Virus record (IMG/VR): IMGVR_UViG_3300042560_002642
Location: 1 to 49,946 of that record
Source: a virus
Reading direction: 5' to 3' (one strand)
DNA: 49,946 nt
Under the pieces are notes generated by a model. That model was not told where the DNA came from and made no database searches. It saw only the letters and a list, made by a program, of their open reading frames with translations. The position numbers and the translations under genes were made by a program. The number at the start of each line of letters is the position of its first letter. The stretch's first letter is position 1. Shown one piece after another: positions 1,923-41,835 of the stretch.

Positions 1923-2625
1923 ACCCCTCGAATCGGAGTCAGGCCACCTTTTCCTTTGGCACCCGGACGCGGTTATCTTCCCCGAGAGGATGCCGACGAT
2001 GGGCGTGTACAGAGAAGGGTACCCCGAAGGCGCTCTAATCCACTACACGGCAGCTAGGAGCTCAAAAGGGCTTAATGATGCCTTTGCAGCGATGGACTGG
2101 GGCAAAAAAGAGGGTTATGCGTTTTTGACCATTGCCTCGAACGGGCAGCTTGTACAAGGCCACCCCATAAACGAATGGGGGTATCACGCCGGTCAATCGT
2201 TTTGGCCCGGCCTAGGGAAAAGCCTATCCTCCAGACTTATCGGAATAGAAATTTGTAGCGCGGGGAAACTTGAACCTCAAAAAGACGGGACTTATATGTC
2301 TTGGTATGGGGAAAAGTTTACTGACCAAGACGTTCGTTATGTTGGGAAAAGCTACGGATGCGACGAGGGATTTTACCACAAATTTACTTTGGAACAGGAG
2401 CAAGCGCTCTGGGCTCTCCTTGTATTCCTCAAGGAAAACGACCCCAAAGGCCGTTTCAAATTTGAGAACGTTCTTGGACACCATGAAGTCACGAACAGTT
2501 CGACAGGAAGAAGAAAACTCGACCCTGGAGGCTCTTTCTCAATACCAATGGAACTATTGCGACGAGCCCTGAAGTTCCACCGAGAGATCGACAGCCTTGA
2601 GGGATTCACCGGCTGGGACTTGTGA
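1864..2625 (+). CDS. Endolysin, N-acetylmuramoyl-L-alanine amidase (Amidase_2 type)
   Basis: A 253-aa protein of the zinc amidase_2 / T7 lysozyme-like fold, which cuts the amide bond between muramic acid and L-alanine in peptidoglycan at the end of infection. The zinc-site pattern is visible: His60 in ALIHYTAA, His206/207 in VLGHHEV, and Asp220 in KLDPGG. WGYHAG and IGIEICS are typical core strands. The first 25 residues are a basic tail with no clear signal peptide, so export probably depends on a holin. GGAGG lies 11 bases before the ATG. Its last 72 bases overlap the 3' end of a gene on the other strand (2554-3477). Confidence 0.9.
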   Translation: MSPKKTSSPKSTLKEPKKHRPLESESGHLFLWHPDAVIFPERMPTMGVYREGYPEGALIHYTAARSSKGLNDAFAAMDWGKKEGYAFLTIASNGQLVQGHPINEWGYHAGQSFWPGLGKSLSSRLIGIEICSAGKLEPQKDGTYMSWYGEKFTDQDVRYVGKSYGCDEGFYHKFTLEQEQALWALLVFLKENDPKGRFKFENVLGHHEVTNSSTGRRKLDPGGSFSIPMELLRRALKFHREIDSLEGFTGWDL

Positions 2626-3477
2626 TTTTTTCATGTAGTGTTCGCGCTTAAAGTAGATATTCCAAAGTTCATACCAGTGGTGAACCGCAGTAAACGAGCA
2701 ACCAAGAGCCGAAAAAGGCGGGCGCTCCTCGTCTATCCGGCAATCGTCCCGGGCGACGTCCCTTAAATCCCGAACCCCATCAAGAACCAATCTACCCCAT
2801 TCCGCAACCGTCACGTTTCCGTTGGGAGCGCAATGGTGAATGAGCGTTTTCTTCTCGCAGAGAAGGGCGTTTAGGTTTTGAGACAGAACCGATGCCAGCC
2901 ACCGAGTAGGGGTTGGGGTCACTCGATTAACAGGCAGCACAATCTTGTCGAAACGATTGGTGAAATTCCTTAGGATTTTTCCAGGGAAAGTCTTCTCTGG
3001 TTTGTGAATACCGTAAAGTGAAGTAACCCGGACAATCGCGCGGTTTGGCTTGTTGGCCTCGAGTATTGTTTTTTCCATCCTGATTTTTTGCTTGGCGTAT
3101 TCGCTGCGAGGGTTTTCGGATTGTAGCAACGGATTGCCTGGTTCTGTTTCGTTTGCGGCGTAGTCGGTGGAGAAGAAAACGATTCGGCAAGCGGTCGGAA
3201 CGTCCTCGTTTAATGCTATCGGCAGGTGTTCGTTGAGGTAGAGGGATTTTTGTCTATAAACGGATGGTGCCTTCGATTCCTGAACGCTCCCGCCGCCGAC
3301 CGGAACCCAGAGAACCGAAGGAGCCCGGCTCTTTATTTCCGCGAACAGGTTTTTGTACTCGGAGAAAGACGTCCCCCTCGACTGGGATAGTATCTCTGGA
3401 CACGCTCCCGGAATCTTGTTCAGCTCCAAGAGCAGGTCTTTGCCTAGATTGCCAGCGCCTAAGATAACGTGTTTCAT
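2554..3477 (-). CDS. RmlD-like NAD(P)-dependent sugar-nucleotide reductase/epimerase
   Basis: An extended short-chain dehydrogenase of 307 aa. The start at 3477 puts the Rossmann glycine motif (VILGAGNLGKD) at the N-terminus; an in-frame upstream extension is possible. The catalytic YxxxK is present as YAKQK after FFSTDYA, and RVTSLYG follows as in RmlD proteins. RmlD reduces dTDP-4-keto-L-rhamnose to dTDP-L-rhamnose. The phage also carries rmlB (40335) and rmlC (41299) elsewhere, so a dTDP-sugar role is likely, but the exact substrate cannot be read. It is last in a minus-strand group with a membrane protein and a methyltransferase, and its 3' end overlaps the endolysin gene tail to tail. 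Confidence 0.75.
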   Translation of the reverse strand: MKHVILGAGNLGKDLLLELNKIPGACPEILSQSRGTSFSEYKNLFAEIKSRAPSVLWVPVGGGSVQESKAPSVYRQKSLYLNEHLPIALNEDVPTACRIVFFSTDYAANETEPGNPLLQSENPRSEYAKQKIRMEKTILEANKPNRAIVRVTSLYGIHKPEKTFPGKILRNFTNRFDKIVLPVNRVTPTPTRWLASVLSQNLNALLCEKKTLIHHCAPNGNVTVAEWGRLVLDGVRDLRDVARDDCRIDEERPPFSALGCSFTAVHHWYELWNIYFKREHYMKKSQVPAGESLKAVDLSVELQGSSQ

Positions 3478-3561
3478 GCTTGTGCCCATAGTAGTACAGA
3501 ACCCCCATGTAGAACAAAAAAAAGACGCTCTCAAAAAGAACGTCCAGAAACAGCCGCTCTA

Positions 3562-3890: not shown

Positions 3891-4412
3891 CTACTTTTCT
3901 ATCTCCACGATCAAATCCTCCATGAAGGGCCTACGTTCAAGTTGTCTAAGTTCTGGGTGCAGTGAGTGGCCGTAAGAAACGTAAGTGATGACCCGGAACC
4001 CAACCTCCTGACAAAGCAGCTCGAAGTCTTCTTTGTCGTAAACGTGCTGATGCCCCCAGAAACGCATACCATCGTTAAGCATCTGACAGGCGTTTTTCGG
4101 ATTCCAAGTTGAAGCCCAGCGGTCGAGTTTTTTCTTTCGGTAGTCGTTTACCAGAACCTCAAGGTTCGGCGTGGAGATGCGAAGCACCCCGTTCTCAGCG
4201 AGTACCCGGTAACACTCGGTCAAAAACCGAAAGGCCTCTCGTCTGGTTAGGTGTTCGATAAAATGTTCGGTGAAGATAAATTGAACTGAGCGAGATTTGT
4301 AAGGAAAGGGTTGCCTTAGGTCGCGCTTGACTCCCCCGATTGCTGGTTCCAAATCTACGTTTTCCCAACCCGCAAGCAGGTGCGGACCACACCCCAAATG
4401 TAGTTTAAGCAT
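3891..4412 (-). CDS. Class I SAM-dependent methyltransferase
   Basis: A 173-aa Rossmann methyltransferase of the Methyltransf_11-like group. Motif I is LHLGCGPHLLAGWENVDLE near residues 4-22; later strands are seen in FIFTEHFIEHL and VLRISTPNLE. This subgroup with GWxNVDL is common in cell-surface polysaccharide clusters. The start at 4412 is chosen because GGGGGAAAGT sits just upstream and motif I follows at once; the frame is open further upstream but without family features. It is first in the minus-strand trio with the RmlD-like gene, suggesting O- or N-methylation of a sugar. The substrate is inferred. Confidence 0.75.
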   Translation of the reverse strand: MLKLHLGCGPHLLAGWENVDLEPAIGGVKRDLRQPFPYKSRSVQFIFTEHFIEHLTRREAFRFLTECYRVLAENGVLRISTPNLEVLVNDYRKKKLDRWASTWNPKNACQMLNDGMRFWGHQHVYDKEDFELLCQEVGFRVITYVSYGHSLHPELRQLERRPFMEDLIVEIEK

Positions 4413-4423
4413 ACTTTCCCCCG

Positions 4424-4432
4424 TGGTATAAG
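4424..4432 (+). promoter_or_regulatory. Extended -10 promoter candidate before the MuF gene
   Basis: TGGTATAAG matches TGN plus TATAAT (5 of 6). The predicted start would be only about 3 bases before the ATG at 4442, where no Shine-Dalgarno is visible, so the transcript could be leaderless. The site lies between divergent genes. Confidence 0.4.
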
Positions 4433-4441
4433 AAACTACAA

Positions 4442-5284
4442 ATGCCACAAGACTTAATTTCTCACCTTTTCGGCAAAGATGACAGGGAATTGATTTATCG
4501 CATGGCAAAGCGGGCCCAGAAGGTAGAGCGCGATTGGAAGAAAAAATACAAGAAGCATATCGAAGAGCTAACCAACTCAATTTTAAATAACGCTGAAAAA
4601 ACAGGGCGTTTGAATCTCTCCGACGTAGAGTTCGAAAGCCTTGTCATGAAGCATCGGCTGGAGGTTGTCGAGGCCGCGACACGGGACGCTAAGAAGGCTA
4701 AACCAAAAAGCAATCTCGCAGCAAAAAAATTGTCTTTCTTGGAGGTTGTCCGAAGGCAATACGATATTTGGAGAACCAAGGGCAAGCTGCCAAAGACCGA
4801 AAAGAAAATCGCAGACGGATTGAAAAACGAATACATTAAACGAATCCAGAATGCCTACAAAAAACACGGAGAAGAGTTCCGTTCCGGGAAAACATACAAC
4901 CAGACACAGGCAAGGATAAAAATTCAGAACGCAGCAAACGTTAGCTACGCCAGAGCCCAAACGATAGTGAACACGGAAACAACCCGATACTACAACGAAG
5001 CAAGGGTCAAGTTCTACGAAGAAGAAGAGGGGGTCACGCACTATTTGTTTATGTGTATTCGAGACTTAAGGACAACCAAGTGGTGCAATACAAGATACCG
5101 GGTGGTTTACAAAAAAGATTCGGCTATCCTCAGAAAAGAAACCCCGCCAATCCACTGGAACTGCCGTTCTGAGCTGCTCCCGCTTACACCATCGAATCCG
5201 CGACACAAAAAAATGATCGACGACAAATCTTCTTTGAGAGAAAACAGGAGCCCTGAAAAGCTGCCTCCCGGGTGGAATAAGTGA
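4442..5284 (+). CDS. Mu F-like head morphogenesis protein (minor capsid)
   Basis: A 280-aa protein with the phage Mu gpF / SPP1 gp7 domain in its C-terminal half. Diagnostic stretches are IVNTETTRYYNEAR (residues 175-188), DLRTTKWCNTRYR (208-220) and PPIHWNCRSE (235-244), with the conserved Cys, His and Arg. The N-terminal half is charged and helical. Family members bind the portal and are packaged with or delivered alongside DNA. It starts the head gene run, but the portal gene is about 12 kb away across the fibre and lysis genes, which is unusual. The stop is immediately followed by a tRNA gene. Confidence 0.85.
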   Translation: MPQDLISHLFGKDDRELIYRMAKRAQKVERDWKKKYKKHIEELTNSILNNAEKTGRLNLSDVEFESLVMKHRLEVVEAATRDAKKAKPKSNLAAKKLSFLEVVRRQYDIWRTKGKLPKTEKKIADGLKNEYIKRIQNAYKKHGEEFRSGKTYNQTQARIKIQNAANVSYARAQTIVNTETTRYYNEARVKFYEEEEGVTHYLFMCIRDLRTTKWCNTRYRVVYKKDSAILRKETPPIHWNCRSELLPLTPSNPRHKKMIDDKSSLRENRSPEKLPPGWNK

Positions 5285-7506: not shown

Positions 7507-7524
7507 ATTTAAGGAGACACTAGA

Positions 7525-7935
7525 ATGGCAAGTTTAGATGTGAAATTTAATTCAGAAGTTTTCAGAAAAGATCATCCAATGGTCATTGCTACCAATCGGC
7601 AATCAGCCGTTCTACTTCCTGTCAGAGTGAAGTGGAAATCTGGTGGCTATGCCGCTGGAACTGTATTGGCTCGTAACACCACTAACGGCGTATATGAGAC
7701 ATATGTAGACGGAACTGGTAGCGGAATCGGAACCGCAGCTTGTGTTTTGTTTGAACAACTAGCAGCTGAGGACTTCGATGCTCAAAGCGCCGCAGGTTCT
7801 ACCACAGCAGTCGGCATTTTCGGTGGATGCACCGTTTATGTAGATAAGCTGGTCGGTTTAGACGCTGCTGCAAAAACAGATTTAGGTGCTAGAGAAATCG
7901 TGGACGCAACGGGCGTTGCAACTCTCAAGTTTTAA
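7525..7935 (+). CDS. Head decoration protein (lambda gpD-like)
   Basis: A 136-aa protein with a strong AAGGAG site. It resembles lambda D-like stabilising proteins: a short N-terminal arm, then a beta-rich body with GGYAAGTVLARNTTNGVYE (about residues 40-58) and a Gly/Ala-rich centre. Such proteins bind as trimers on the expanded capsid. It sits between the protease-scaffold gene and the major capsid gene, the classical order. Length fits the family. Confidence 0.8.
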   Translation: MASLDVKFNSEVFRKDHPMVIATNRQSAVLLPVRVKWKSGGYAAGTVLARNTTNGVYETYVDGTGSGIGTAACVLFEQLAAEDFDAQSAAGSTTAVGIFGGCTVYVDKLVGLDAAAKTDLGAREIVDATGVATLKF

Positions 7936-7952
7936 TTGAAAGGAACTAATCA

Positions 7953-9044
7953 ATGAGCATGAACCAGTTTTTAACGAATGAATATACCGAGGTCATCCAG
8001 AAGTTGGTTCGGGAGATTGTAAACGATCCCTCGACCTACATGGGTTCCAAATATTTACCAAGCGTGGCCTTGCCAGTGAGCAAAGTTCGCACCGAAGTCA
8101 TCGAGGCTTCAGGCGGTCTTACTCAAGAGCATCGTCCCGGCACCGAGCCTAAATTGATTCAATCTTTCGGAACAAGGGTTCAGGAATACCAACCCCCGTT
8201 CTACAAAGAATCAATCATGTACGGCGAAGAAAAGATTTTGTACCTCAGACAGCTTGGCGACAATGGTCGCAATGTTCGAGGCGTTCAACAATACATCGAT
8301 ATCGACGTAGACCGCTTAAATCGACGAGTTGAAGCCCGAATCGAAAAACAACGCTGGGATACAATCTTCAACGGCGGATTCGCTTGGCAAGGAAAAACGG
8401 TTTCCTTCGGAATCCCCGCTCAAAACACAGCTCTCCCAACCGGAGCAGACTGGTCAGCCGATGGACAGCAAGCTAATAACTCTGCTAACCCAATCGTCGA
8501 CCTTCGCTATTGGTTAATGGGCGGCCTCGATTCTTTCCGTAAGTATCGAGTTACAAAGATTGTCATGAACCCCAACACCTCACGATGGTTGTTGGATAAC
8601 AGCAATACCCGCGCGTATCTGACCAGCTATGGTGCTAACCCCACCATCGGCAGCTATGACGTAAACCGCGTATTGAACTTCTTGGTCCCAGGACTTCCAG
8701 AAGTTGAAGTGTACGCAGGTTGGTACCAGACCGAATCCCTAGACGGAAACGGCAAACTGGTTGTCAGCGATGCTGTTTACATGATCCCAGACGGAAAAAT
8801 TTACTTCGAATGCGCTCTCCCCGGAGGAGACAGAATCGGAGAATTCGTACAAACCGTTCACTTAGCCTCTGGCTCTATCGACAGCCCTGGCTTTGGAAAG
8901 TTCCTCGTAATCGAGGACAACACCCAGCCCGGTACAAAAGGCGGGCCTCAAAACCCATACTTGGTGCTAACTGGCGGCGTGTACGGCGGAGTGAAATTGG
9001 ACCGTGCATTTGATGTGCTGACCGCATCGGTGTATAACCCCTAA
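7953..9044 (+). CDS. Major capsid protein (lambda gpE-like superfamily)
   Basis: A 363-aa protein of the phage major capsid E family. Typical features are the N-terminal YLPSVALPVSKVRTEVIE stretch (about residues 35-52), the central helix region with ARIEKQRWDTIFNG, and the C-terminal strands PDGKIYFECALPG. It forms the icosahedral shell. It follows the decoration gene with a good AAAGGA site and precedes head completion genes. Family is assigned by pattern and position. Confidence 0.88.
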   Translation: MSMNQFLTNEYTEVIQKLVREIVNDPSTYMGSKYLPSVALPVSKVRTEVIEASGGLTQEHRPGTEPKLIQSFGTRVQEYQPPFYKESIMYGEEKILYLRQLGDNGRNVRGVQQYIDIDVDRLNRRVEARIEKQRWDTIFNGGFAWQGKTVSFGIPAQNTALPTGADWSADGQQANNSANPIVDLRYWLMGGLDSFRKYRVTKIVMNPNTSRWLLDNSNTRAYLTSYGANPTIGSYDVNRVLNFLVPGLPEVEVYAGWYQTESLDGNGKLVVSDAVYMIPDGKIYFECALPGGDRIGEFVQTVHLASGSIDSPGFGKFLVIEDNTQPGTKGGPQNPYLVLTGGVYGGVKLDRAFDVLTASVYNP

Positions 9045-25902: not shown

Positions 25903-26215
25903 TCTGGTTCACGTTCCAGATGTAGAATGGTGCGCGTCTGCCGGGGACTTCGGAGCCCTTTGCCAAAATTCCATCTCTGAAAAAAATCGACAGTTGTCCA
26001 ACAAAGAGTGGATTGAATTTCTTGAAGCGAAGTCTGACAACCCAAACACCCCGGAAACCAATGAAGGAAAAGGGCCTGCGCTCTGTGCTTCTTCCGAAGA
26101 TTTTGCTAGGGTGAAAACCGTGATAGAGCAGTTGTGCGAGGCCAAAAATTCTCAGTGCAGATTTGAAGAAGTGAATCAGGTTTTTAAAAGATTAGAAAAA
26201 ATCAGAAGACGATGA
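25799..26215 (+). CDS. Lipoprotein, candidate o-spanin (138 aa)
   Basis: The N-terminus is basic (NKNKKRSKTPKLK), then hydrophobic (WLFLFATLSLNSC) with a lipobox ending in Cys33. The mature part of about 105 residues has several Cys and a C-terminal helix. The first 104 bases overlap the preceding gene in another frame, as in Rz/Rz1. Outer-membrane o-spanin is the favoured reading. The mature part is longer than Rz1, so a different phage lipoprotein, such as an exclusion factor, is possible. Starts at 25799 or 25808 cannot be told apart. Confidence 0.55.
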   Translation: MTQMQPQNKNKKRSKTPKLKWLFLFATLSLNSCTNLVHVPDVEWCASAGDFGALCQNSISEKNRQLSNKEWIEFLEAKSDNPNTPETNEGKGPALCASSEDFARVKTVIEQLCEAKNSQCRFEEVNQVFKRLEKIRRR

Positions 26216-26952
26216 ACAAAATAGCAGTGCTCACGTTGGGTTTTATGAAATGGCAAATCATTGCCAAGTCTTTTGAGCAGCTGTATCGGACCAAGTCTAT
26301 AGCCTGGGAACACCACGTTTTAGACCAACACTACCCTCTCAACGAAAAAGAAAACCGCGATTCCCTTCGGGATATTTGCCTTGATTACAAAGCCACCCTT
26401 CATGACGCTGGAAAAAACCTCGGCCTCCACGAGGGGGTAAATTACCTGATTCAAAAAACCCAGCCAAAAGTTGTTATTGGGTACGATCCGGATTCTTTTC
26501 CTCTTAGGGTCGGTTGGGACGATGCTATTACGAAGGTTTTATGCGATAAGGTGGTTTGGTCAACCCTCGGAAACCCGCGCAGCCTTTCAGAAGTGAAAGC
26601 CCGGGGTTATCAAGAAGTGAATTATAATTTTGTAAGATGCTGGGTAACAAAACAAGCTGTCGTAAATTCGGTTTGTGCTTGGTGGGTTCCTTGGCTAGAA
26701 GAGGTCAAACTCACAGAACCGCGACCGTTTTATGGACACCTAGAAACAGAAATGTTTTCAAAGCTTAAGGGTCGAGAGTGGGTTTTTCTCCCGGGGTTTG
26801 AGGAATCAGATCACCTAAGGTGGCAACACGACAAAGAATATACGTTGTATAAGTGGGCCCATGCCCACCTAAAATCTTGGGATGGAGACTTTAAGTCTTG
26901 GCTTGAAGCGGGGATGCCTCACGAAAGGCCCGCTCCGGAAAAACTCCCCTAG
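26212..26952 (+). CDS. Glycosyltransferase, GT-A fold (GT2-like)
   Basis: A 246-aa protein. The nucleotide-sugar part is seen in KIAVLTLGFMKWQ at the N-terminus, DAGKNLGLHEGVNYLI (about residues 66-81) and a DxD-like IGYDPDSFPL (about 89-98). It lacks a membrane segment. It overlaps the lipoprotein gene stop (ATGA). It may transfer one of the phage-made dTDP sugars to host glycan, to virion proteins or to modified DNA; the sequence does not say which. Confidence 0.65.
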   Translation: MNKIAVLTLGFMKWQIIAKSFEQLYRTKSIAWEHHVLDQHYPLNEKENRDSLRDICLDYKATLHDAGKNLGLHEGVNYLIQKTQPKVVIGYDPDSFPLRVGWDDAITKVLCDKVVWSTLGNPRSLSEVKARGYQEVNYNFVRCWVTKQAVVNSVCAWWVPWLEEVKLTEPRPFYGHLETEMFSKLKGREWVFLPGFEESDHLRWQHDKEYTLYKWAHAHLKSWDGDFKSWLEAGMPHERPAPEKLP

Positions 26953-28106: not shown

Positions 28107-28631
28107 TTATAGAGCAGGAAAAATGAGATTAAGGATTTTGTTTTTGTTTTCTTGTAGGTCTTCTTCTGTTTCGTTCCGGAGTGTTTCGTGTTTGAAAGAT
28201 TTTTTGATGTTTTCTATTTTCGTTTTTCGACCGGCCAACCAAGATTCCGTTTGGGTGTCATTTCTTTTGATATGTCTGTACTTTTTTTCTTGCTCGGAAA
28301 CTTCCAAAACAAAAATCTTACAGTCCTTGTCTTTTTTCTCGAAAAGCTGGAGACAGCTCGAAGCAAAAAACCTATCCCCTTCAAACAGATAGTTCCCGCT
28401 GGTTTTTTTTAAAAACAAATCCAAATCCGCAGGCGCTGCCATGGAGAGCCTATCGGTACCCTGGAACGTTCCGGAATCATATATGCCCAACAAAAACAAA
28501 TTGTATTTTGAATAATAGCGTCCGCTGATTCTTAAAAACTTAAACGGCTGATAGGGCCCAAGAGGTTCTACTACCATTTTCATCAAGCTTGTTTTTCCGG
28601 TTGCGGGCTCCCCGCCTATGCAAATAATCAT
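28107..28631 (-). CDS. P-loop kinase, predicted 5-hydroxymethyl-pyrimidine DNA kinase
   Basis: A 174-aa P-loop kinase with Walker A GEPATGKT (residues 7-14) at the N-terminus, FQGTDRLSMAAPADLDLFL (about 55-73) and GNYLFEGDRFF (about 79-89) as acceptor and Walker B-like parts. It overlaps the amino acid:DNA transferase gene by four bases. In phages with hypermodified thymine such as ViI and M6, a small P-loop kinase phosphorylates 5-hydroxymethyl-dU in DNA and a partner transferase then displaces the phosphate. Gene pairing and motifs support that role here; substrate proof is lacking. Confidence 0.8.
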   Translation of the reverse strand: MIICIGGEPATGKTSLMKMVVEPLGPYQPFKFLRISGRYYSKYNLFLLGIYDSGTFQGTDRLSMAAPADLDLFLKKTSGNYLFEGDRFFASSCLQLFEKKDKDCKIFVLEVSEQEKKYRHIKRNDTQTESWLAGRKTKIENIKKSFKHETLRNETEEDLQENKNKILNLIFPAL

Positions 28632-29524
28632 GAACGCTCTTTCAGAAATTCTTTTTTGAACGTTTCCCTTCTAAAATCCCACAATACAGACCAATCAACC
28701 CCGCTTGTTACTCGGGACTGCAAAATTTTTATTTCATCGTGCTGTCTATCAAGATAATAACCAACGTACCTTCTTCCTTCTTTGTACTTTTTGAAAGCGC
28801 ACAAGCTTGTTTCCACGTTCCAAACAGTGTTTTGTTTGTTCTGGGCTTTCATGTGAACCATCAATTTAGAAAAAGCCGGTTGAAGAAGTCTCCAAGAGTT
28901 CGGGTTGCCGACTAGGTCATCCCGCCGAAGGGCGTAGGCGAGCCCGTCTTTACAAGTTGAGGCCTGACTTAAATCCAGATTGTCTGGCTCCATCGGAAAT
29001 CCGGTCACGACGTGAACTGCCTCTAAATACAAGAACATTGAAAATCTGCCAAAATTTTTGATTTTAGACATTTCTGCCCAAGCGGTTTTATATGTCTGTA
29101 TTTTGTCCGAGGAACAAAGAAGTGAAAATTTCTGGGCCTGATTTATTGGGTAAATTAACGACCGATAGGATTCGAACGTTTCGCTGAGCAAATTCATTGT
29201 CTGTATTCTGAGACGGTCTTTTTGGAAATAACAAAGTTTTTTGTTTTTATTCCACCACCTATTGAGGCGACCCAAATCCACGTTCTCGAAATCAGGAAAT
29301 TCGTTGTAGATGTAAAACACGGTCGGGCCGCAGTAACAACAAGCGTACAAAAAGGCCAGCCAATATCTCTGTTCTATGTTTAGCTCGTACCTGTCACAAA
29401 CATAACGGAGCATCGGGTAAGAAGGATCAATGTCTCCACAAGCGGCGGAATCGTTGTGGTATTTATTGTATTCCTCAATCAATTTGCCAAAACTTGTTTG
29501 GTGGTAATTCTGAGACTGAATCAA
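28628..29524 (-). CDS. Amino acid:DNA transferase (aGPT-Pplase2-like)
   Basis: A 298-aa protein resembling the alpha-glutamyl/putrescinyl-thymine pyrophosphorylase family (AADT), which replaces the (pyro)phosphate on hydroxymethylated thymine with an amino compound. Family-like stretches are YWLAFLYACCYCGPTVFYIY (residues 54-73), LYLEAVHVVTG (165-175), ASTCKDGLAYALRRDD (188-203) and ETSLCAFKKY then RRYVGYYLDRQHDEI (238-265). The start is TTG 29524 with GGAG six bases upstream and overlaps the amidotransferase by 50 bases; it is coupled to the kinase (ATGA). The amino donor cannot be read from sequence. Confidence 0.82.
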   Translation of the reverse strand: MIQSQNYHQTSFGKLIEEYNKYHNDSAACGDIDPSYPMLRYVCDRYELNIEQRYWLAFLYACCYCGPTVFYIYNEFPDFENVDLGRLNRWWNKNKKLCYFQKDRLRIQTMNLLSETFESYRSLIYPINQAQKFSLLCSSDKIQTYKTAWAEMSKIKNFGRFSMFLYLEAVHVVTGFPMEPDNLDLSQASTCKDGLAYALRRDDLVGNPNSWRLLQPAFSKLMVHMKAQNKQNTVWNVETSLCAFKKYKEGRRYVGYYLDRQHDEIKILQSRVTSGVDWSVLWDFRRETFKKEFLKERS

Positions 29525-30098
29525 AGGTTACTCCGGTTCTGTCAAAAATGTTTTTGGTGGAACAAATAAAAGTAGTGCCCCCCTTTTTTCCCAGCCAAGC
29601 CGGTCTTCTTGGGTTTCTGCCCGCGAAAAGCCTGTTGTTTAAAAAATACAGCCCGGCAAACGACCCTTTCATCTGTGACAAAAACTTTTCCGGCTGTTCG
29701 TTGTCTAAGATTTTACAAAGCATTATCTCGCCGTCATTTTCTGTTTCGTAAGTTCTGTTGTATTCGAGTTCGTACTCTTGCTTGGTTCCCATGTGTATCA
29801 CGCCGTTGAACACCAAGGCGGAATTGGGTTTAACTATGGGTTGGTTGTTTTCCGGGTTCAGGTAGTCGCCGCTGGTAGAATAGCGACAGTGAGCTATTAG
29901 AGAATCAAAATCGGTTTTTTCTACCGACTGTAAAAACAGCTCAAAATCCAAAAATTTTTTGGTTATGATTTCAGAACCGCAAAGAGCGGAAAAACCAAAA
30001 GCGTGAAGGCCTCTTATTTTGGATTCAATCAGCAGCCTTGTTAAAGTTTCTTTCTGCTGACGAACGTCTGTTCCAGTCATTCCTACGATAGCGCACAT
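29475..30098 (-). CDS. Class II glutamine amidotransferase domain protein (Ntn hydrolase)
   Basis: A 207-aa GATase II protein. The start at 30098 places Cys2 (MCAIVGMTG) as N-terminal nucleophile; a GTG nine bases upstream would bury it. Other family marks are RGLHAFGFS (near residues 33-41), LIAHCRYSTSG (near 66-76), NQPIV and LVFNGVIHMG (near 90-99), and a central DGEIMLC. It has no synthetase domain. In its operon it could release ammonia from glutamine for amidation of a DNA-linked carboxylate, or pass glutamine-derived groups to the transferase. It begins two bases after the GNAT stop. Confidence 0.8.
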   Translation of the reverse strand: MCAIVGMTGTDVRQQKETLTRLLIESKIRGLHAFGFSALCGSEIITKKFLDFELFLQSVEKTDFDSLIAHCRYSTSGDYLNPENNQPIVKPNSALVFNGVIHMGTKQEYELEYNRTYETENDGEIMLCKILDNEQPEKFLSQMKGSFAGLYFLNNRLFAGRNPRRPAWLGKKGGTTFICSTKNIFDRTGVTFDSVSELPPNKFWQID

Positions 30099-30100
30099 AT

Positions 30101-30517
30101 TTACCACTTTTTGTAAATTGCCAGCTTTTTCCCGGAGGAGGCGGTTTTATATCCGATTAAAACAAAGCCCAGCTTTTTGTAAAATTCATTAGATTCTGCG
30201 TGTTCGGCGTCTGTTTTGAGCTCTATGGCTCCGCTCAGGGTGTTAATCAGCTGCTTGCCGAGGCCCTTCTTTTTATGTTCTGGGTGAACTGCTATTTCAT
30301 AAATTACGCTGGTTCCGTCTTTGGCTCTCTGTAGCCAGTGCATAAATGCTATTTCTGGGATTACAAAAAAGTGTTCTCTCGGGTTGTTTCCTTGCAGCCA
30401 TCTCCAAAACACTAACCCGCCGCCGACTTTTCCCAAGATTTCTTTGTTCAGGTCAAATAGTTTGGCTACCCATTTTTGATCAGAGGCTACAGCCCTTCTA
30501 ACCTGATATTTTTCCAT
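30101..30517 (-). CDS. GNAT-family N-acetyltransferase
   Basis: A 138-aa GNAT protein. The acetyl-CoA site is seen in YEIAVHPEHKKKGLGKQLI (residues 73-91), with the usual basic-x-x-GxG loop, and the C-terminal NEFYKKLGF (110-118) is the usual strand-helix pair. It overlaps the dioxygenase gene by 20 bases. In this operon it may acetylate the amine put on DNA, as GNAT-fold enzymes (for example Mom-type) are known in phage base modification. A role on a free small molecule cannot be excluded. Confidence 0.75.
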   Translation of the reverse strand: MEKYQVRRAVASDQKWVAKLFDLNKEILGKVGGGLVFWRWLQGNNPREHFFVIPEIAFMHWLQRAKDGTSVIYEIAVHPEHKKKGLGKQLINTLSGAIELKTDAEHAESNEFYKKLGFVLIGYKTASSGKKLAIYKKW

Positions 30518-31406
30518 ATAAGCGGGTGCCTTTTAATCTTTGTTTAGCGAATTCCAATTCTTCAGCTGCTGTCCCGCAATCTATCATTCTCTCTCTGTAA
30601 TAACAAACACAACTAATCCGCAGAGAACTTCTGATCGAGCCTATCAGCGGAGTGTTTCCGTGAGCGTGATGAGAATCGAACAAAAGCAAATCTCCCTGCC
30701 GTAAATCAACAGCAATGCGGAACTTCGGGAACACTAAGTTGCAACCGCTAAAATCGCCAGACCTTAAAACCAATATGCTTGAAAGGCCGCTTTTCAAATC
30801 CCCTTGGTCAGTATGGACGGCCGTCGACCAATTTTTATTGACGGTAATGGTTGTAAAAACGGTGTTAGGAATTACAAAATCCTTGGAAGTTTTGTCGACT
30901 ACGTTTTTTTGTATGGCAAATTTCTCTGGTGCTATTTCAGAATAGGCCTGAGAAACCCTCTGGAAAAAAGGCATCAGGGCGTTCCATTTAGCTGTTTCCT
31001 GAGCGGTAAACGCGGTCTGTCTACAAAATGGGAATCGCGGGTAGCGGTCAAAATATCCAATGATGGCAGAGTTGACCGCGTATTTAGACGGGATTGAATT
31101 TGATTTGGAAACCGTACCGTCTTTTTTTATGAACGGTTTAGCAAGCCCTTTTCCGGTTGCCATTCCCCGGTTGTTGGTTGTCTGTTTTATCGTGTTTAAT
31201 AACATTTTGGCTCTTTCGCACAGAGCCGGGTCTAAAACGCTTTTCCGAAAACAAAGAATTATGTTTCCTTGCTCGTCAAAAACATCAACAGAATCTTGAA
31301 TCAGCTCGTCGTAATCGCTTTCTTTTAACTTGGAGCCGACTAGGTTTTCTACTTGCTCGTCAGACAGTCGCGACGACGCTCTTATATTGCGCACGGATTG
31401 TTTCAT
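30498..31406 (-). CDS. TET/JBP-type 2-oxoglutarate/Fe(II) DNA dioxygenase
   Basis: A 302-aa dioxygenase. The Fe site is His198 and Asp200 (VHTDQGD) with a distal His249 in HAHGNT; Arg263 in SSLRISCVCYYRE is the probable 2-oxoglutarate ligand. TVFTTITVNKNWSTAVHTDQ and NLVFPKFRIAVDLRQGDLL are typical of the TET/JBP clade of nucleic-acid base oxidases. Members oxidise the methyl group of 5-methylcytosine or thymine. No cytosine-5 methyltransferase is in the genome, so thymine (giving 5-hydroxymethyluracil) or host-methylated cytosine are the candidates. It overlaps the ParB-like gene by 47 bases. Confidence 0.85.
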   Translation of the reverse strand: MKQSVRNIRASSRLSDEQVENLVGSKLKESDYDELIQDSVDVFDEQGNIILCFRKSVLDPALCERAKMLLNTIKQTTNNRGMATGKGLAKPFIKKDGTVSKSNSIPSKYAVNSAIIGYFDRYPRFPFCRQTAFTAQETAKWNALMPFFQRVSQAYSEIAPEKFAIQKNVVDKTSKDFVIPNTVFTTITVNKNWSTAVHTDQGDLKSGLSSILVLRSGDFSGCNLVFPKFRIAVDLRQGDLLLFDSHHAHGNTPLIGSIRSSLRISCVCYYRERMIDCGTAAEELEFAKQRLKGTRLYGKISG

Positions 31407-32073
31407 AAACTGTGTCAGTTAAGTTCCCTGTTTGGAAGAATGATTGCAGTTTTTCTGTCATCTGCAAAAATTCTCCGATGTTGTCTTGCGAGAGAAATAG
31501 TTGAACCATCCTGACATGAGAAGAAGGAACGTGCAAAACACCGAGGTCGGTCGGTTTGTTTTCGATTGCTTCGGTAGCGGTGGGTTCTGGCAGCGCTACT
31601 TCTTGACCAAAACTTACCGGGGCAAGCTTTTTTTCCAGCTCCAGGAAATCAAACCCGGTAATTTCCATGTCAAACGTTCCGTTGTCCAGCTCGATTAACA
31701 GCTCGTCCAGTTTAGGAAAATCCCATTCCGACATTTCTTTAATTTTGTTGTCGGCAATCAAATCTGCAATTTCATGAGATTCGTCCTCGTACTGTTGATA
31801 TTCAACAGGGTACTTCGACAGACCAAGAGCCTTAGCCGCAAGAATTCTCCCGTGGCCTCTTGTTACTAAACCGCTCCGGGTAGAAACCGTCGCCGGTTGT
31901 CTGATTCCGTTTTCTTGAAAAATTTTTGTGAGAATTTCAATTTGTCTATTTGGGTGCTTGTTCGGGTTTTTGGGGTGAGCGATAAATTTGTCTATGTCCA
32001 ACAGCTCGGAAAAAGAACACCATACGTTTACGCCATCAATCTGATTTTTAGAAACTTCTTTATTATTATTCAT
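31360..32073 (-). CDS. ParB-like (sulfiredoxin-fold) protein, first gene of the modification operon
   Basis: A 237-aa protein. Residues about 22-115 form the ParB N-terminal domain: IAHPKNPNKHPNRQIEILTK, IRQPATV, GLVTRGHGRILAAKALG with the GHGR box (73-76), and HEIADLIADNKI. The C-terminal 120 residues have no known match. ParB-like domains accompany phage DNA methylases and base modification genes, where they may bind DNA and target or switch the enzymes using nucleotide. It opens the operon and is divergent from the replication genes. Confidence 0.8.
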   Translation of the reverse strand: MNNNKEVSKNQIDGVNVWCSFSELLDIDKFIAHPKNPNKHPNRQIEILTKIFQENGIRQPATVSTRSGLVTRGHGRILAAKALGLSKYPVEYQQYEDESHEIADLIADNKIKEMSEWDFPKLDELLIELDNGTFDMEITGFDFLELEKKLAPVSFGQEVALPEPTATEAIENKPTDLGVLHVPSSHVRMVQLFLSQDNIGEFLQMTEKLQSFFQTGNLTDTVYETIRAQYKSVVATV

Positions 32074-36341: not shown

Positions 36342-36419
36342 CCGGAAAAAACAACGCAGAACAAACCGTTTGCAGTTACAAAGAAAAAATGGTTTATTCT
36401 GGTTTCCCCGAGCATAATA

Positions 36420-36455
36420 GAGGGGGGTTGAAGGTACCTCAATGCCCAACCCCTC
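36420..36455 (+). other. Hairpin between recT-like and glycosyltransferase genes
   Basis: GAGGGGGGTTG (36420-36430) pairs with CAACCCCTC (36447-36455), nine pairs with a two-base bulge. No T tract follows, so it is not a standard terminator. It lies 11 bases before the glycosyltransferase ATG, which has no ribosome site, so it may control that start. Confidence 0.45.
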
Positions 36456-36466
36456 TCGTCAAAAAC

Positions 36467-37522
36467 ATGAAGACACTACTAGCATTTTCACCAGCGTACA
36501 CCGATGCAACAAGTTTCTACCGCTCTTTTGGTCCTCTGGGAGAGCTGAAAAGACAATACCCAGAACTAAACATTTTAAAAGGCGAAGAAGTAAATTGGGC
36601 CACCCTAGCGATGGTTGACGGGCTCTTTCTTCAGAGGCCTTTTAGCGCTACCCACGCTCAGGTAATTGATATGGCCCAGAGCAACGGGAAAAAAATCTGG
36701 ATTGATTACGACGACGATTTATATTCTGTCCCGCTGGGGAACAGGGCCTACAAAATTTATCACAACCAACAAACTCAGAACAACATAACCACTTTGGTGG
36801 CGAAGGCTGACTTTGTTTCTGTTTCCACGCACCAGCTCAAGAGAAGGCTCTGCGAAATCCTGAACAAGATAAAAGAAAAAAATGTTCCGGGCGCGAAAAC
36901 AAATCATGACAAAGTCAGAGTCATACCGAACGCCTACAATCCAAATTTTTGTAAGTACAGAGGCCAGGTAAATCAGCAGAGGAAAATTATCACCTGGAGG
37001 GGCAGTGATACCCATGACAAGGATCTTCTCGTTTACACTAGCGCGCTAAAACAAGCTTTTTCCACTGACCTTTCCTGGACAATGAATTTAATAGGTCAGC
37101 CTTTTTGGTACACCATAGAGCAGATTGCTAGCATTCCTGAAATAAAAGAAAGCAACCTGATTGTTACCCCGGCCCTAGACCCGGCGGAATACTGGAAAAT
37201 GCTCTACCAAACTAACCCTTCTCTCGTGTTTGTTCCTCTGTGGGATTGTCCTTTCAACCGAGCCAAATCAAACATAGCTTGGATAGAGGGAGCCCACGCC
37301 GGAGCCGGTTGCCTCGGGCCCGACTGGGAAGAGTGGCGAAAGCCGGGCATTTTAAATTATAAAGACCCTAAAGATTTTTATGAAAAAATGCTGGCCGTTT
37401 TGAAGGGCGAAATTAACACCATGAAACTTTACGAGGACGGATGGCAATACATTCAAGAAAACTTGCTGTTAGAAAAAATAAATCCACTAAGAAAGCAGAT
37501 CCTAGACGAAATGTGGAGCTGA
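36467..37522 (+). CDS. Glycosyltransferase, GT-B fold (GT4-like)
   Basis: A 351-aa protein. Start 36467 is chosen from the N-terminal strand KTLLAFSPAYTDATSFYRS; a longer frame exists. KKIWIDYDDDLYSVP (about residues 71-85), VRVIPNAYNP (about 146-155) and ITWRGSDTHDKDLLVY are typical of phage and bacterial GT4-like enzymes that contain the DDD motif, and NIAWIEGAHAGAGCLGPDW is the donor site region. The acceptor is unknown. It is between recombination genes and the resolvase, away from the sugar genes. Confidence 0.75.
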   Translation: MKTLLAFSPAYTDATSFYRSFGPLGELKRQYPELNILKGEEVNWATLAMVDGLFLQRPFSATHAQVIDMAQSNGKKIWIDYDDDLYSVPLGNRAYKIYHNQQTQNNITTLVAKADFVSVSTHQLKRRLCEILNKIKEKNVPGAKTNHDKVRVIPNAYNPNFCKYRGQVNQQRKIITWRGSDTHDKDLLVYTSALKQAFSTDLSWTMNLIGQPFWYTIEQIASIPEIKESNLIVTPALDPAEYWKMLYQTNPSLVFVPLWDCPFNRAKSNIAWIEGAHAGAGCLGPDWEEWRKPGILNYKDPKDFYEKMLAVLKGEINTMKLYEDGWQYIQENLLLEKINPLRKQILDEMWS

Positions 37523-38939: not shown

Positions 38940-40338
38940 ACTAGCGCCTTGGCAAGCGGTGGCAATAAACAATCCATACGACCATTTTGCTTTTTTCGGT
39001 GGGGTGGCAGCCGGAAAGTCTTGCGCTGGTTCTCATTTTGTAATCAAGATGATAACTGAACACCCGGAAAAAACCGGATTTATCGGAGCCAATACATACG
39101 ACCAGCTTTCTCAGGCGACACTCAGAGAATTGTTTTATTGGTTAGAGCATTACAACCTTGATTTTGTGGTCGACAAAATGCCTCCCGCACATTGGAAATG
39201 TAAGCGGGCTCTAAAAAAATATTCAAACACTATCCACGTTAGGAACCCGGCCAACGAAACAGTCAGCCTGATTTTTGCCCGCGTTCTCTCTGACGAAAAC
39301 CCGCTCCGAGGTATTGAGTTTTCCTGGTATTGGCTAGACGAAACCCGCGACACCCCGGAAAGAACTCATGACGTTGTTTTGTCTCGTATGAGGGAATCAG
39401 AATTTATCAAAGGGATAATAACAACGACCACAAACGGAGAAGACTGGACTTTTAAACGATTCTGTATGGGCGACCCGAGGGTTTACGGTTCGATGCACGT
39501 TCCAACTTTTAAGAGCGTCGAATACGGAATCATTTCAGAAAAATACTATCAGACGCTCAGACAAACCTATTCGCCTTTGTTGGCTCAGCAAGAGTTAGAC
39601 GCTCTCCATGTAAACATTCTTGGTGGAAAAGCCTATTACGCCGCTTCAGACGTGAACAGAAAAAGAATTGCCCCCTGGGGAGACGAAGTTCCGGACAGAA
39701 ACAAACCCTTAATAATAGGATGTGATTTCAACTTCAACCCCTCTCCCTGTGTTTGGGTGGTTGGTCAGATTGGAGAAGGGGAGTTTTCGGAACATATACA
39801 TTGGTTTCACGAGATAGCTCTTTCGGAGGCCAGCACAGTAGAAATGACCTACCAGCTTTTAAACCAGTTTCCCGGGTTTTTTTATCGTGTCTTTGGCGAC
39901 GTTTCCGGCGGAGTGGGAACAACTTCAAACGCTGGAGAAACCGACTACCAACAAATCAGCAATATTTTAAATCAGGCCGGGGTGCCTTTTTCTATTGATT
40001 ACTTTCAGGAGGATTCAAAACAAAACCCGAAAGTCCGGAGCCGGGTGGAAAACATGAACGCCAGATTAAAAAATGCTGTGGGCGAAATCAGAATGACTTA
40101 CAATCCAGATAATTGTCCTTTGTTGGATGGTGACTTTAAAATGGTCGGGTGGAAACAAAACACGCAGACCGGCAGGGGAAAGCTGGATTCCGGTGGAGAT
40201 CCAATGAGAACCCACGCTTCAGACGCTGCCGGGTACGCCGTTTGGAAACTGTTTCCGCCAGTGTTTATCACTGAAATTGTTGATCCAGTCCCGAGCCAGG
40301 TTCGTGCTGAGTTTGGGCTGTTGGAAAGGCGAACATGA
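38926..40338 (+). CDS. terL: Terminase large subunit
   Basis: A 470-aa packaging ATPase-nuclease. Walker A is GGVAAGKS (residues 25-32), Walker B with catalytic Glu is WYWLDE (134-139), and the coupling motif region is GIITTTTNGEDW. The RNase H-like nuclease has GCDFNF (265-270), VFGDVSGG and a late Asp in HASDAAGY. Members cut and translocate DNA into the prohead. Its stop overlaps rmlB (ATGA), which is an odd partner. Confidence 0.93.
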   Translation: MPTAKLAPWQAVAINNPYDHFAFFGGVAAGKSCAGSHFVIKMITEHPEKTGFIGANTYDQLSQATLRELFYWLEHYNLDFVVDKMPPAHWKCKRALKKYSNTIHVRNPANETVSLIFARVLSDENPLRGIEFSWYWLDETRDTPERTHDVVLSRMRESEFIKGIITTTTNGEDWTFKRFCMGDPRVYGSMHVPTFKSVEYGIISEKYYQTLRQTYSPLLAQQELDALHVNILGGKAYYAASDVNRKRIAPWGDEVPDRNKPLIIGCDFNFNPSPCVWVVGQIGEGEFSEHIHWFHEIALSEASTVEMTYQLLNQFPGFFYRVFGDVSGGVGTTSNAGETDYQQISNILNQAGVPFSIDYFQEDSKQNPKVRSRVENMNARLKNAVGEIRMTYNPDNCPLLDGDFKMVGWKQNTQTGRGKLDSGGDPMRTHASDAAGYAVWKLFPPVFITEIVDPVPSQVRAEFGLLERRT

Positions 40339-41312
40339 TTTTAGTAACCGGCGGTTATGGGTTTATCGGTTCTCATCTTGTTAGGTATCTTCTTTCTTTG
40401 GGACACGAGGTGGTGGTGGTGGATTCCATAACCTACGCCGCCAACCCAGAGTTCGTTAAAAAATTTTGCAGAGAGAAAAACAAAAAATATATTGAGGAAA
40501 TTGTCGATATCCGGGACCACCTGGCCGTCGCGAGGCTAATGAACAAATACAGGCCGGATGTCGTTTATCATCTGGCAGCCGAAAGCCACGTTTGTCGAAG
40601 TCTCGCCGGACCGAAAGATTTTGTTTACACGAACGTTCTTGGAACTTTTCACCTGATAGAAGAATTTAAACAGCTGCACGGAGGCGACAAATCCAAAAGG
40701 TTCGTGCACGTTTCTACTGACGAGGTTTTTGGGGAGCTAAATTTGTCTGACCCCCCTTTTTCCGAAAAAACGCCGGTTGTCCCCAGAAGTCCCTATGCTG
40801 CGACCAAGGCCTCGAGTGATCATATTGTCCAGGCCTATCATCACAGCTACGGAATAAATACAATCATCACGAACTGCTCAAATAACTTTGGACCAAACCA
40901 GCATTCAGAAAAATTGATACCGGCAACGATCTTGCGACTTAAACAAAACAAACCGATTCGACTTTATGGTTCTGGACTAAACATCAGGGACTGGCTTTGG
41001 GTTGAGGATCACGCGAAAGGCCTTGTTTTGCTCGCCGAAAAAGGAAAGGCCGGGGAGAGGTATTGTATTGGCGGAGAAAACGAGCTCACCAACCTAGAGA
41101 TAGCTCACAGAGTTCACTCCGCAATGGAAACGATATGGGGAACTATTCAGCTGGACATTGAATTTACAAACGACCGACCAACGGACGACAAACGTTATGC
41201 GATTGACTGTTCTAAACTTAAAGCACTAGGCTGGGAGCCGAGCAAAAATTTTGCAGAACAATTATTTAAAACAATAGATTTTTACACGATTACCAAAAAT
41301 GGAAAAAATTGA
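40335..41312 (+). CDS. rmlB: dTDP-glucose 4,6-dehydratase
   Basis: A 325-aa extended SDR. The NAD site is GGYGFIGSHL (residues 6-15), the catalytic set is STDEVFG (near 132-138) with YAATK (near 158-162), and NCSNNFGPNQHSEKLIP plus YGSGLNIRDWLWVEDH are RmlB signatures. It makes dTDP-4-keto-6-deoxyglucose. It is translationally coupled to terL before and overlaps rmlC after. No rmlA is in the phage, so the host must supply dTDP-glucose. Confidence 0.9.
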   Translation: MILVTGGYGFIGSHLVRYLLSLGHEVVVVDSITYAANPEFVKKFCREKNKKYIEEIVDIRDHLAVARLMNKYRPDVVYHLAAESHVCRSLAGPKDFVYTNVLGTFHLIEEFKQLHGGDKSKRFVHVSTDEVFGELNLSDPPFSEKTPVVPRSPYAATKASSDHIVQAYHHSYGINTIITNCSNNFGPNQHSEKLIPATILRLKQNKPIRLYGSGLNIRDWLWVEDHAKGLVLLAEKGKAGERYCIGGENELTNLEIAHRVHSAMETIWGTIQLDIEFTNDRPTDDKRYAIDCSKLKALGWEPSKNFAEQLFKTIDFYTITKNGKN

Positions 41313-41835
41313 AATAAACGAAATTATAAACGCCTACATGATAAGGCGAACCGAACCCCACAGAGACGCGCGAGGATTCTTCTCCGAGGTTTATAGAGCG
41401 TGCGACATTGAAGGAAAGTTCGTTCAAAGAAACGTGAGCGCATCAAAAAAGAACGTTCTTCGCGGTATGCACTCTCTCTGGAGCAAGCCCCAAGGAAAGC
41501 TCATTACCTGTTTGTACGGAAAAATCTGGGACGTGATTTATGACGCTAGGCCACGGAGCCCAACTTTTGGAAGGGGCTATGCGTTAGAGCTCAGTCACGA
41601 TAAAATGAACTCTCTGTTTGCTCCCCCCGGGTGCTTGCACGGGTTTCTTGTTCTTTCAGACTTGGCGATAGTGGAGTACGATTGCACAAGTTACTTTGAA
41701 CCCAGATACGACGGAGGTGTAAAATGGTCAGATCCACAAATAAAGAAATTTTTTCCTCAAGGGATCAGTCCGGTTTTGAGTTCTAAAGACGAAAAGCTGG
41801 GCTCTTTGAGTGAATTTATCAGGCTAAAGAGTTAA
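41299..41835 (+). CDS. rmlC: dTDP-4-dehydrorhamnose 3,5-epimerase
   Basis: A 178-aa cupin. RmlC marks are DARGFFSEVYRA, the catalytic His in LRGMHSLW, QGKLITCLYGKIWDVIYDAR, LFAPPGCLHGFLVLSD and EYDCTSYFEPRYDGGVKW. It converts the RmlB product to the L-configured 4-keto sugar. With the RmlD-like reductase (2554) the route to dTDP-L-rhamnose would be complete. A 3,4-ketoisomerase variant is less likely because length and motifs fit the epimerase. It precedes the portal by nine bases. Confidence 0.87.
   Translation: MEKIEINEIINAYMIRRTEPHRDARGFFSEVYRACDIEGKFVQRNVSASKKNVLRGMHSLWSKPQGKLITCLYGKIWDVIYDARPRSPTFGRGYALELSHDKMNSLFAPPGCLHGFLVLSDLAIVEYDCTSYFEPRYDGGVKWSDPQIKKFFPQGISPVLSSKDEKLGSLSEFIRLKS

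Follow-up and report, generated by a model that had tools for sequence, protein, structure and literature searches.

The locus described here raises the question of how a bacteriophage might build a hypermodified base within DNA that has already been replicated, and of what each gene of a compact operon would contribute to such chemistry. It lies in IMG/VR record IMGVR_UViG_3300042560_002642, which was analyzed over its whole length of 49,946 nt (the window, in which all positions are counted), and comprises six genes on the minus strand (32073–28107) that encode, in order, a ParB-like protein, a TET/JBP dioxygenase, a GNAT acetyltransferase, a class II glutamine amidotransferase (GAT), an amino acid:DNA transferase (ADDT), and a P-loop kinase. 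The original prediction, made from the letters of the DNA, had named six such genes in this place, order, and orientation, and all were recovered and assigned to families using Pfam and PHROG. The operon very probably serves to oxidize thymine residues of existing DNA and to exchange the resulting hydroxyl for a nitrogen-bearing group. As its detailed course we propose, with our confidence evenly balanced, a post-replicative pathway in which thymine would be converted via 5-hydroxymethyluracil (5hmU) and 5-phosphomethyluracil to 5-aminomethyluracil, with the ammonia coming from the GAT, and then to an N-acetylated product.

The source of the hydroxymethyl group is indicated by the content of the genome. 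The record ends in an exact terminal repeat of 127 bp, and the 49.9-kb genome is therefore probably closed. Profile searches of the genome gave no match to thymidylate synthase (TS; PF00303), to C5-methyltransferase (C5-MTase; PF00145), or to an HMUDK-type 5-hydroxymethyl-2′-deoxyuridine (5-hmdU) DNA kinase (PF18748/PF18723), which bears out the earlier claim that neither a deoxyuridine monophosphate hydroxymethylase nor a C5-MTase is encoded. Nor was there a match in the genome to a family-A DNA polymerase profile; an O-like replication initiator suggests that the host replisome is used. Given a host replisome and no nucleotide-level hydroxymethylase, hydroxymethyluracil would have to arise in finished DNA; its formation there by oxidation is the best reading of the gene content, and the proposal of a hydroxymethyluracil-based pathway acting on finished DNA gains support from the lack of both a pre-replicative hydroxymethylase and a C5-MTase.

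The candidate for this oxidation is the dioxygenase, whose membership of the TET/JBP family is secure on the basis of Pfam and fold: it scores above the Pfam cut-off, the catalytic residues of the double-stranded β-helix (HxD...H...R) are intact and invariant (His198, Asp200, His249, and Arg263), and the first 26 PDB matches of its AlphaFold2 (AF2) model (predicted local distance difference test [pLDDT] 91.9) in Foldseek are all of the TET family (NgTet1, CcTet, TET2, and CMD1). Assignment of the transferase to the ADDT family (PF18724) is secure on the same two grounds. Its AF2 model (pLDDT 96.4) gave only three significant PDB matches, all of them chains of 8z2m/8z2n, i.e. the 5-phosphomethyl-2′-deoxyuridine (5-PmdU) glycinyltransferase PUGT, gp46 of phage PaMx11, with TM-scores (0.57–0.59) that indicate a related fold rather than a close copy. 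A PDB profile search added a match to 25qc (1.6e-8). Direct profile comparison of the ADDT with PaMx11 gp46 is weak (hhalign probability 3.6%), and it is fold, Pfam, and the PDB profile search that link the two. The ADDT is predicted to substitute the phosphate of 5-phosphomethyl-dU. Neither enzyme was placed in an unrelated family. Support for the kinase, also as predicted, is weaker than for these two. Its P-loop (GGxPAxGK) and an FEGxR motif are conserved in 49 sequences, and hhalign relates it (98%) to actinophage kinases, two of which match PF18751; it thus appears to be kin to the actinophage Ploopntkinase3 and to belong to a different P-loop group from HMUDK (PF18748). We ascribe the PHROG names "queuine tRNA-ribosyltransferase" (dioxygenase) and "terminase small subunit" (kinase) to carry-over of annotation.

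Dozens of IMG/VR contigs carry the six-gene operon. With the TET of the window and two relatives as queries, 214 relatives were obtained and 80 loci retained (the alignment of the full set of TETs proved too divergent for use as a query); the counts are of contigs, among which there are overlapping and nearly identical ones, and do not represent independent events. Recurrence of the gene order in dozens of contigs rules out chance. The arrangement in most of the 80 loci is ParB-TET-GAT-(GNAT)-ADDT-kinase on one strand, followed in most such cases by two further genes (∼115 and ∼385 aa) that, from their size and order, look like a terminase pair. The order found in the window, TET-GNAT-GAT-ADDT, is common to five loci of the wider set. 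Other arrangements are ParB-TET-ADDT(240 aa)-FAD enzyme-kinase (FAD, flavin adenine dinucleotide), ParB-TET-FkbM methyltransferase, and ParB-TET with other genes. In four loci (L064, L067, L069, and L070), ParB-TET is followed by what may be another tailoring module, consisting of a 204-aa protein whose GCGRSGTKY motif is P-loop-like and a protein of 306 aa that weakly resembles glycosyltransferases. The ParB gene lies directly 5′ of the TET gene in nearly all untruncated related loci. The match of its product to Pfam ParB_N is just E 0.1, the PHROG 498/620 assignment is solid, and a C-terminal segment (MVQLF...NLTDT) is conserved; it is likely to be a DNA-binding or targeting subunit. The GNAT gene is absent from part of the related operons, and its product gives a profile match to the PaMx11 acetyltransferase gp48. 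Searches for closer copies were negative: the operon DNA had no match among 50,697 phage records, best identities in the phage collection were 28% for ADDT and 27% for GAT, and P0005 as a single-protein query matched nothing in viral or genome contigs. An ADDT-alignment scan of genome contigs was likewise without a match, hence there is no prophage copy or clue to the host.

Comparison of TET neighborhoods bears on the target base. In the Melnitz clade of C5-MTase-linked TETs, a C5-MTase is present in 66 of 71 loci and ParB, ADDT, or GAT in none of the 71; among 32 records related to the window type, no TS-family protein was found, and a C5-MTase scored above the cut-off in two. The eighth residue after the 2-oxoglutarate (2OG)-binding arginine (Arg271 in the window), which we take to align by spacing with the base-contacting histidine of TET2, is arginine throughout the ParB-linked TETs of the first scan, aspartate in 47 of 50 MTase-linked TETs, and arginine or leucine, never aspartate, in the wider GAT-linked set. 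This pattern is suggestive, being compatible with a base different from that of the MTase-linked TETs, but is no proof of thymine. The earlier inference of thymine as the starting base is strengthened by the rarity of C5-MTases beside ParB-linked TETs, and by the occurrence of GAT-ADDT beside a 5-hmdU DNA kinase in another contig. In that record (L218), GAT-ADDT is accompanied by a TS-family protein, both 5-hmdU DNA kinase domains, and DNA polymerase A, with no TET, a gene set that would place GAT-ADDT in a hydroxymethyluracil pathway.

The step that follows phosphorylation is informed by the bond between GAT and ADDT. The GAT lacks a fused synthase domain, and ADDT is its invariable partner: two independent scans, one with GAT and one with ADDT as query, showed the two genes side by side in all loci apart from three cut by contig ends. 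All class II residues (Cys1, the arginine of HxRYxTSGD, Asn-Gly, and Asp) are kept and are invariant in 43 sequences; the nucleophile had been predicted as Cys2, and the cysteine is indeed present but is called Cys1, after removal of the initiator methionine. In 15 loci, all without GAT, the equivalent slot is held by an FAD oxidoreductase homologous to PaMx11 gp47. The original prediction of an amine or amino acid that is then amidated or acetylated is modified accordingly: the GAT, which is never parted from ADDT and never occurs with the FAD oxidoreductase encoded after the glycinyltransferase in PaMx11, is more likely to donate nitrogen for installation by ADDT than to act in a later amidation. 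We suggest tentatively, at somewhat less than an even chance, that the two proteins are the subunits of a glutamine-dependent DNA amidotransferase. Ammonia from glutamine would be channeled to the 5-phosphomethyluracil that TET and kinase produce in finished DNA, and 5-aminomethyluracil would form in a single step in place of glycine transfer followed by an FAD oxidoreductase.

In the proposed pathway the ParB-like protein would recruit the enzymes to DNA, where the dioxygenase, for which thymine is the presumed substrate, would hydroxylate the thymine methyl group to give 5hmU. The P-loop kinase, to judge from its family and context, would then form 5-phosphomethyluracil, from which ADDT would displace the phosphate while the GAT hydrolyzes glutamine and passes on ammonia, yielding 5-aminomethyluracil directly. 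Where encoded, the GNAT would acetylate this amine to 5-acetamidomethyluracil, and the modified DNA may be resistant to host nucleases. In the original prediction, modification of finished DNA would allow particular sites, rather than the genome at large, to be targeted. Iyer in 2013 reportedly predicted hydroxymethyl pyrimidines made by TET/JBP enzymes as starting points for further modification, and flavin-dependent lyases and acetyltransferases are said to have been described by Lee in 2022.

The same route to 5-phosphomethyluracil could also end with ADDT installing an intact amino acid (e.g. serine, glutamate, or glutamine), the GAT amidating its carboxylate or supplying glutamate. We regard this as less likely but as a serious rival, noting that the ADDT family takes its name from the transfer of amino acids, that its nearest solved relative is a glycinyltransferase, and that an amidoligase-like gene occurs in some GAT-ADDT loci, a weak indication. 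GAT-linked ADDTs also resemble ViI-type ADDTs at the motif examined: the lysine of the FAD-linked glycinyltransferase motif is missing from GAT-linked, ViI-type, and actinophage ADDTs alike. Loss of this lysine was considered as a mark of ammonia use and was dropped, since the latter two groups lack it too. Against amino acid transfer, the window operon has no ATP-dependent synthetase or ligase for carboxylate activation, the GNAT requires an accessible amine, and the mutual exclusion of GAT and FAD oxidoreductase is what one would expect of two routes to a single amine. A route through cytosine, in which the TET enzyme would oxidize host-made 5-methylcytosine to 5-hydroxymethylcytosine and kinase and ADDT would act on that base, takes its appeal from the many phage TETs that adjoin C5-MTases, with kinase homologs there too; we consider it improbable, as a C5-MTase is absent from the genome and rare in relatives, the MTase-linked clade lacks ParB, ADDT, and GAT and differs at the pocket residue, the fold match of the ADDT is a uracil enzyme, and GAT-ADDT co-occurs with a 5-hmdU kinase. 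Modification of a nucleic acid other than phage DNA, such as tRNA, where 5-aminomethyluridine chemistry reportedly exists, seems very improbable: GAT and GNAT are generic families, but TET/JBP and ADDT are DNA-directed by fold, and related phages bearing the core are annotated for DNA modification.

Several observations weigh against the ammonia-fed thymine pathway that we favor. No ADDT residue examined separates ammonia transfer from amino acid transfer, and the kinase family cannot be taken as a sign of uracil, as it also accompanies C5-MTase-linked TETs (23 of 71 loci). Other pocket residues (Asn/Leu) are seen in 14 TETs encoded after ADDT, and several records with TET after ADDT have no detectable kinase of the window's family. 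The TS-family protein of L218 is a hydroxymethylase by assumption, and a 99.6-kb contig (L263) has GAT-ADDT-kinase but neither PF12851 nor PF00303. GNAT, radical SAM (S-adenosylmethionine), and amidoligase-like genes stand alongside in that contig.

Parts of this system have precedents. ParB, TET/JBP, pyrophosphorylase/aGPT-Pplase2, and kinase genes were listed as a probable modification system in Gordonia phage CaiB (PMC9302106), and the same four core genes in Rhodococcus phage Tonitrus (PMC11955845); the ParB-TET-ADDT-kinase core is thus already published as a putative nucleotide or thymine modification system in actinophages. CaiB, Tonitrus, and Mycobacterium Coopervirus share with the window a compact operon with ParB-like, TET/JBP, ADDT (aGPT-Pplase2/pyrophosphorylase), and P-loop kinase genes. 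The four core genes lie on one strand in the window and in the same order in Coopervirus, but GNAT and GAT, neither of which is reported for the actinophage operons, intervene between TET and ADDT in the window. Sequence identity is low, and the TET pocket residues of Coopervirus and Mementomorivirus are Asn/Leu, in contrast to Asp/Arg in the window. 5-Aminomethyluracil has been reported as natural in phages (PMC11550810).

PaMx11 encodes a row of glycinyltransferase (gp46), FAD oxidoreductase (gp47), acetyltransferase (gp48), kinase pair (gp49/50, assigned by size and by homology of L296 proteins to PF18748/PF18723), and TS-like protein (gp51). Transferase fold, kinase step, and acetyltransferase are common to this PaMx11/M6 type and the window operon. 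However, in PaMx11/M6-type phages a TS-family enzyme acting on nucleotides, rather than TET/JBP, provides the hydroxymethyl group, an FAD oxidoreductase stands where the window has GAT, and the kinase is of a different family. The operon may be viewed, by analogy, as an equivalent of the PaMx11 gene set that works within DNA and is fed by glutamine. Methylophilales phage Melnitz represents a type that shares the TET/JBP family and sometimes a related kinase with the window, but has a C5-MTase partner, no ParB, ADDT, or GAT, and aspartate at the position of Arg271. TET oxidation would also come first in Pelagibacter phage HTVC112P (ParB-TET-FkbM) and Nonlabens phage P12024L (TET with a TET-associated glycosyltransferase, TAGT), whose TETs are 44% and 34% identical to that of the window; here, the second step is an FkbM-type methyltransferase or a glycosyltransferase, with no neighboring kinase or ADDT. 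In P12024L (6920–8548), the TET, with arginine at the base-pocket position, adjoins the glycosyltransferase (PF20691), no gene in the vicinity is annotated as a C5-MTase, and the pair is a candidate base-J-like phage modification. We found no report of GAT in TET/ADDT operons in a search confined to open papers, so that an earlier mention is possible. Beyond the published core, the constant GAT-ADDT pairing points to a chemical shortcut, none being described in open papers.

Gene boundaries were adjusted with the aid of homologs (Table 1). The TET gene has two possible starts (ATG 31406 or GTG 31394), and its overlap with the ParB gene (35–47 bp) depends on the choice; it overlaps the GNAT gene by 20 bp. 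The GAT gene starts at ATG 30098 (MCAIVG...), which yields a two-base gap. For ADDT the start is most likely TTG 29482, not 29524, because homologs begin at that point; with this start, GAT and ADDT overlap by 8 bp, and ADDT and kinase overlap by 4 bp. The compact minus-strand unit with overlaps or a two-base gap throughout, as predicted, therefore stands, with corrected GAT and ADDT starts. Predicted promoters and terminators were no more numerous than in shuffled sequence. Elsewhere in the window, the Rml-like genes, accompanied by the methyltransferase, suggest use of a deoxythymidine diphosphate (dTDP)-rhamnose-type sugar. The PHROG 7162 protein, encoded among the replication and recombination genes, might be a glycosyltransferase acting on DNA or on a surface.

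Table 1. Operon genes and other features of the window
Feature	Position	Strand	Evidence or context
ParB-like protein, 237 aa, first operon gene	31360..32073	-	PHROG 498 E 2e-32, PHROG 620 5e-27
TET/JBP 2OG-Fe(II) dioxygenase, 302 aa, predicted thymine hydroxylase	30498..31406	-	Pfam Tet_JBP PF12851 E 7.6e-28; AF2/Foldseek
GNAT acetyltransferase, 138 aa, optional tailoring enzyme	30101..30517	-	Pfam PF13508 5.6e-12
Stand-alone class II glutamine amidotransferase (GAT, glutaminase)	29475..30098	-	Pfam GATase_6 PF13522 7e-8
ADDT amino acid:DNA transferase, 284 aa, TTG start	28628..29482	-	Pfam PF18724 1.9e-19; AF2/PDB
P-loop kinase, 174 aa, predicted 5hmU DNA kinase	28107..28631	-	Weak Pfam AAA matches; PHROG 800 2e-11
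Lysine-rich small protein, 96 aa	27682..27972	-	3′ of kinase past a gap; no Pfam/PHROG family match
Glycosyltransferase-resembling protein, DPD-type motif	26212..26952	+	Opposite strand near operon; no Pfam/PHROG match
Glycosyltransferase-like protein	36389..37522	+	PHROG 7162 E 5e-21
dTDP-sugar genes (RmlB-like dehydratase, RmlC-like epimerase, RmlD-like reductase)	40335..41835; 2554..3534	+; -	
SAM methyltransferase	3891..4580		With dTDP-sugar genes

If the proposed pathway is correct, TET/JBP enzymes are able to initiate the hypermodification of thymine in DNA made by an ordinary replisome, without the nucleotide pool being taken over. A ParB-TET base would then serve alternative second modules, namely kinase-ADDT-GAT, kinase-ADDT-FAD enzyme, and FkbM methyltransferase. 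Given that GAT and ADDT strictly co-occur and that the FAD enzyme is excluded, a small number of purified proteins would suffice for a direct test of the mechanism, and the GAT-ADDT pair would serve as a compact means of introducing a primary amine at thymines in DNA.

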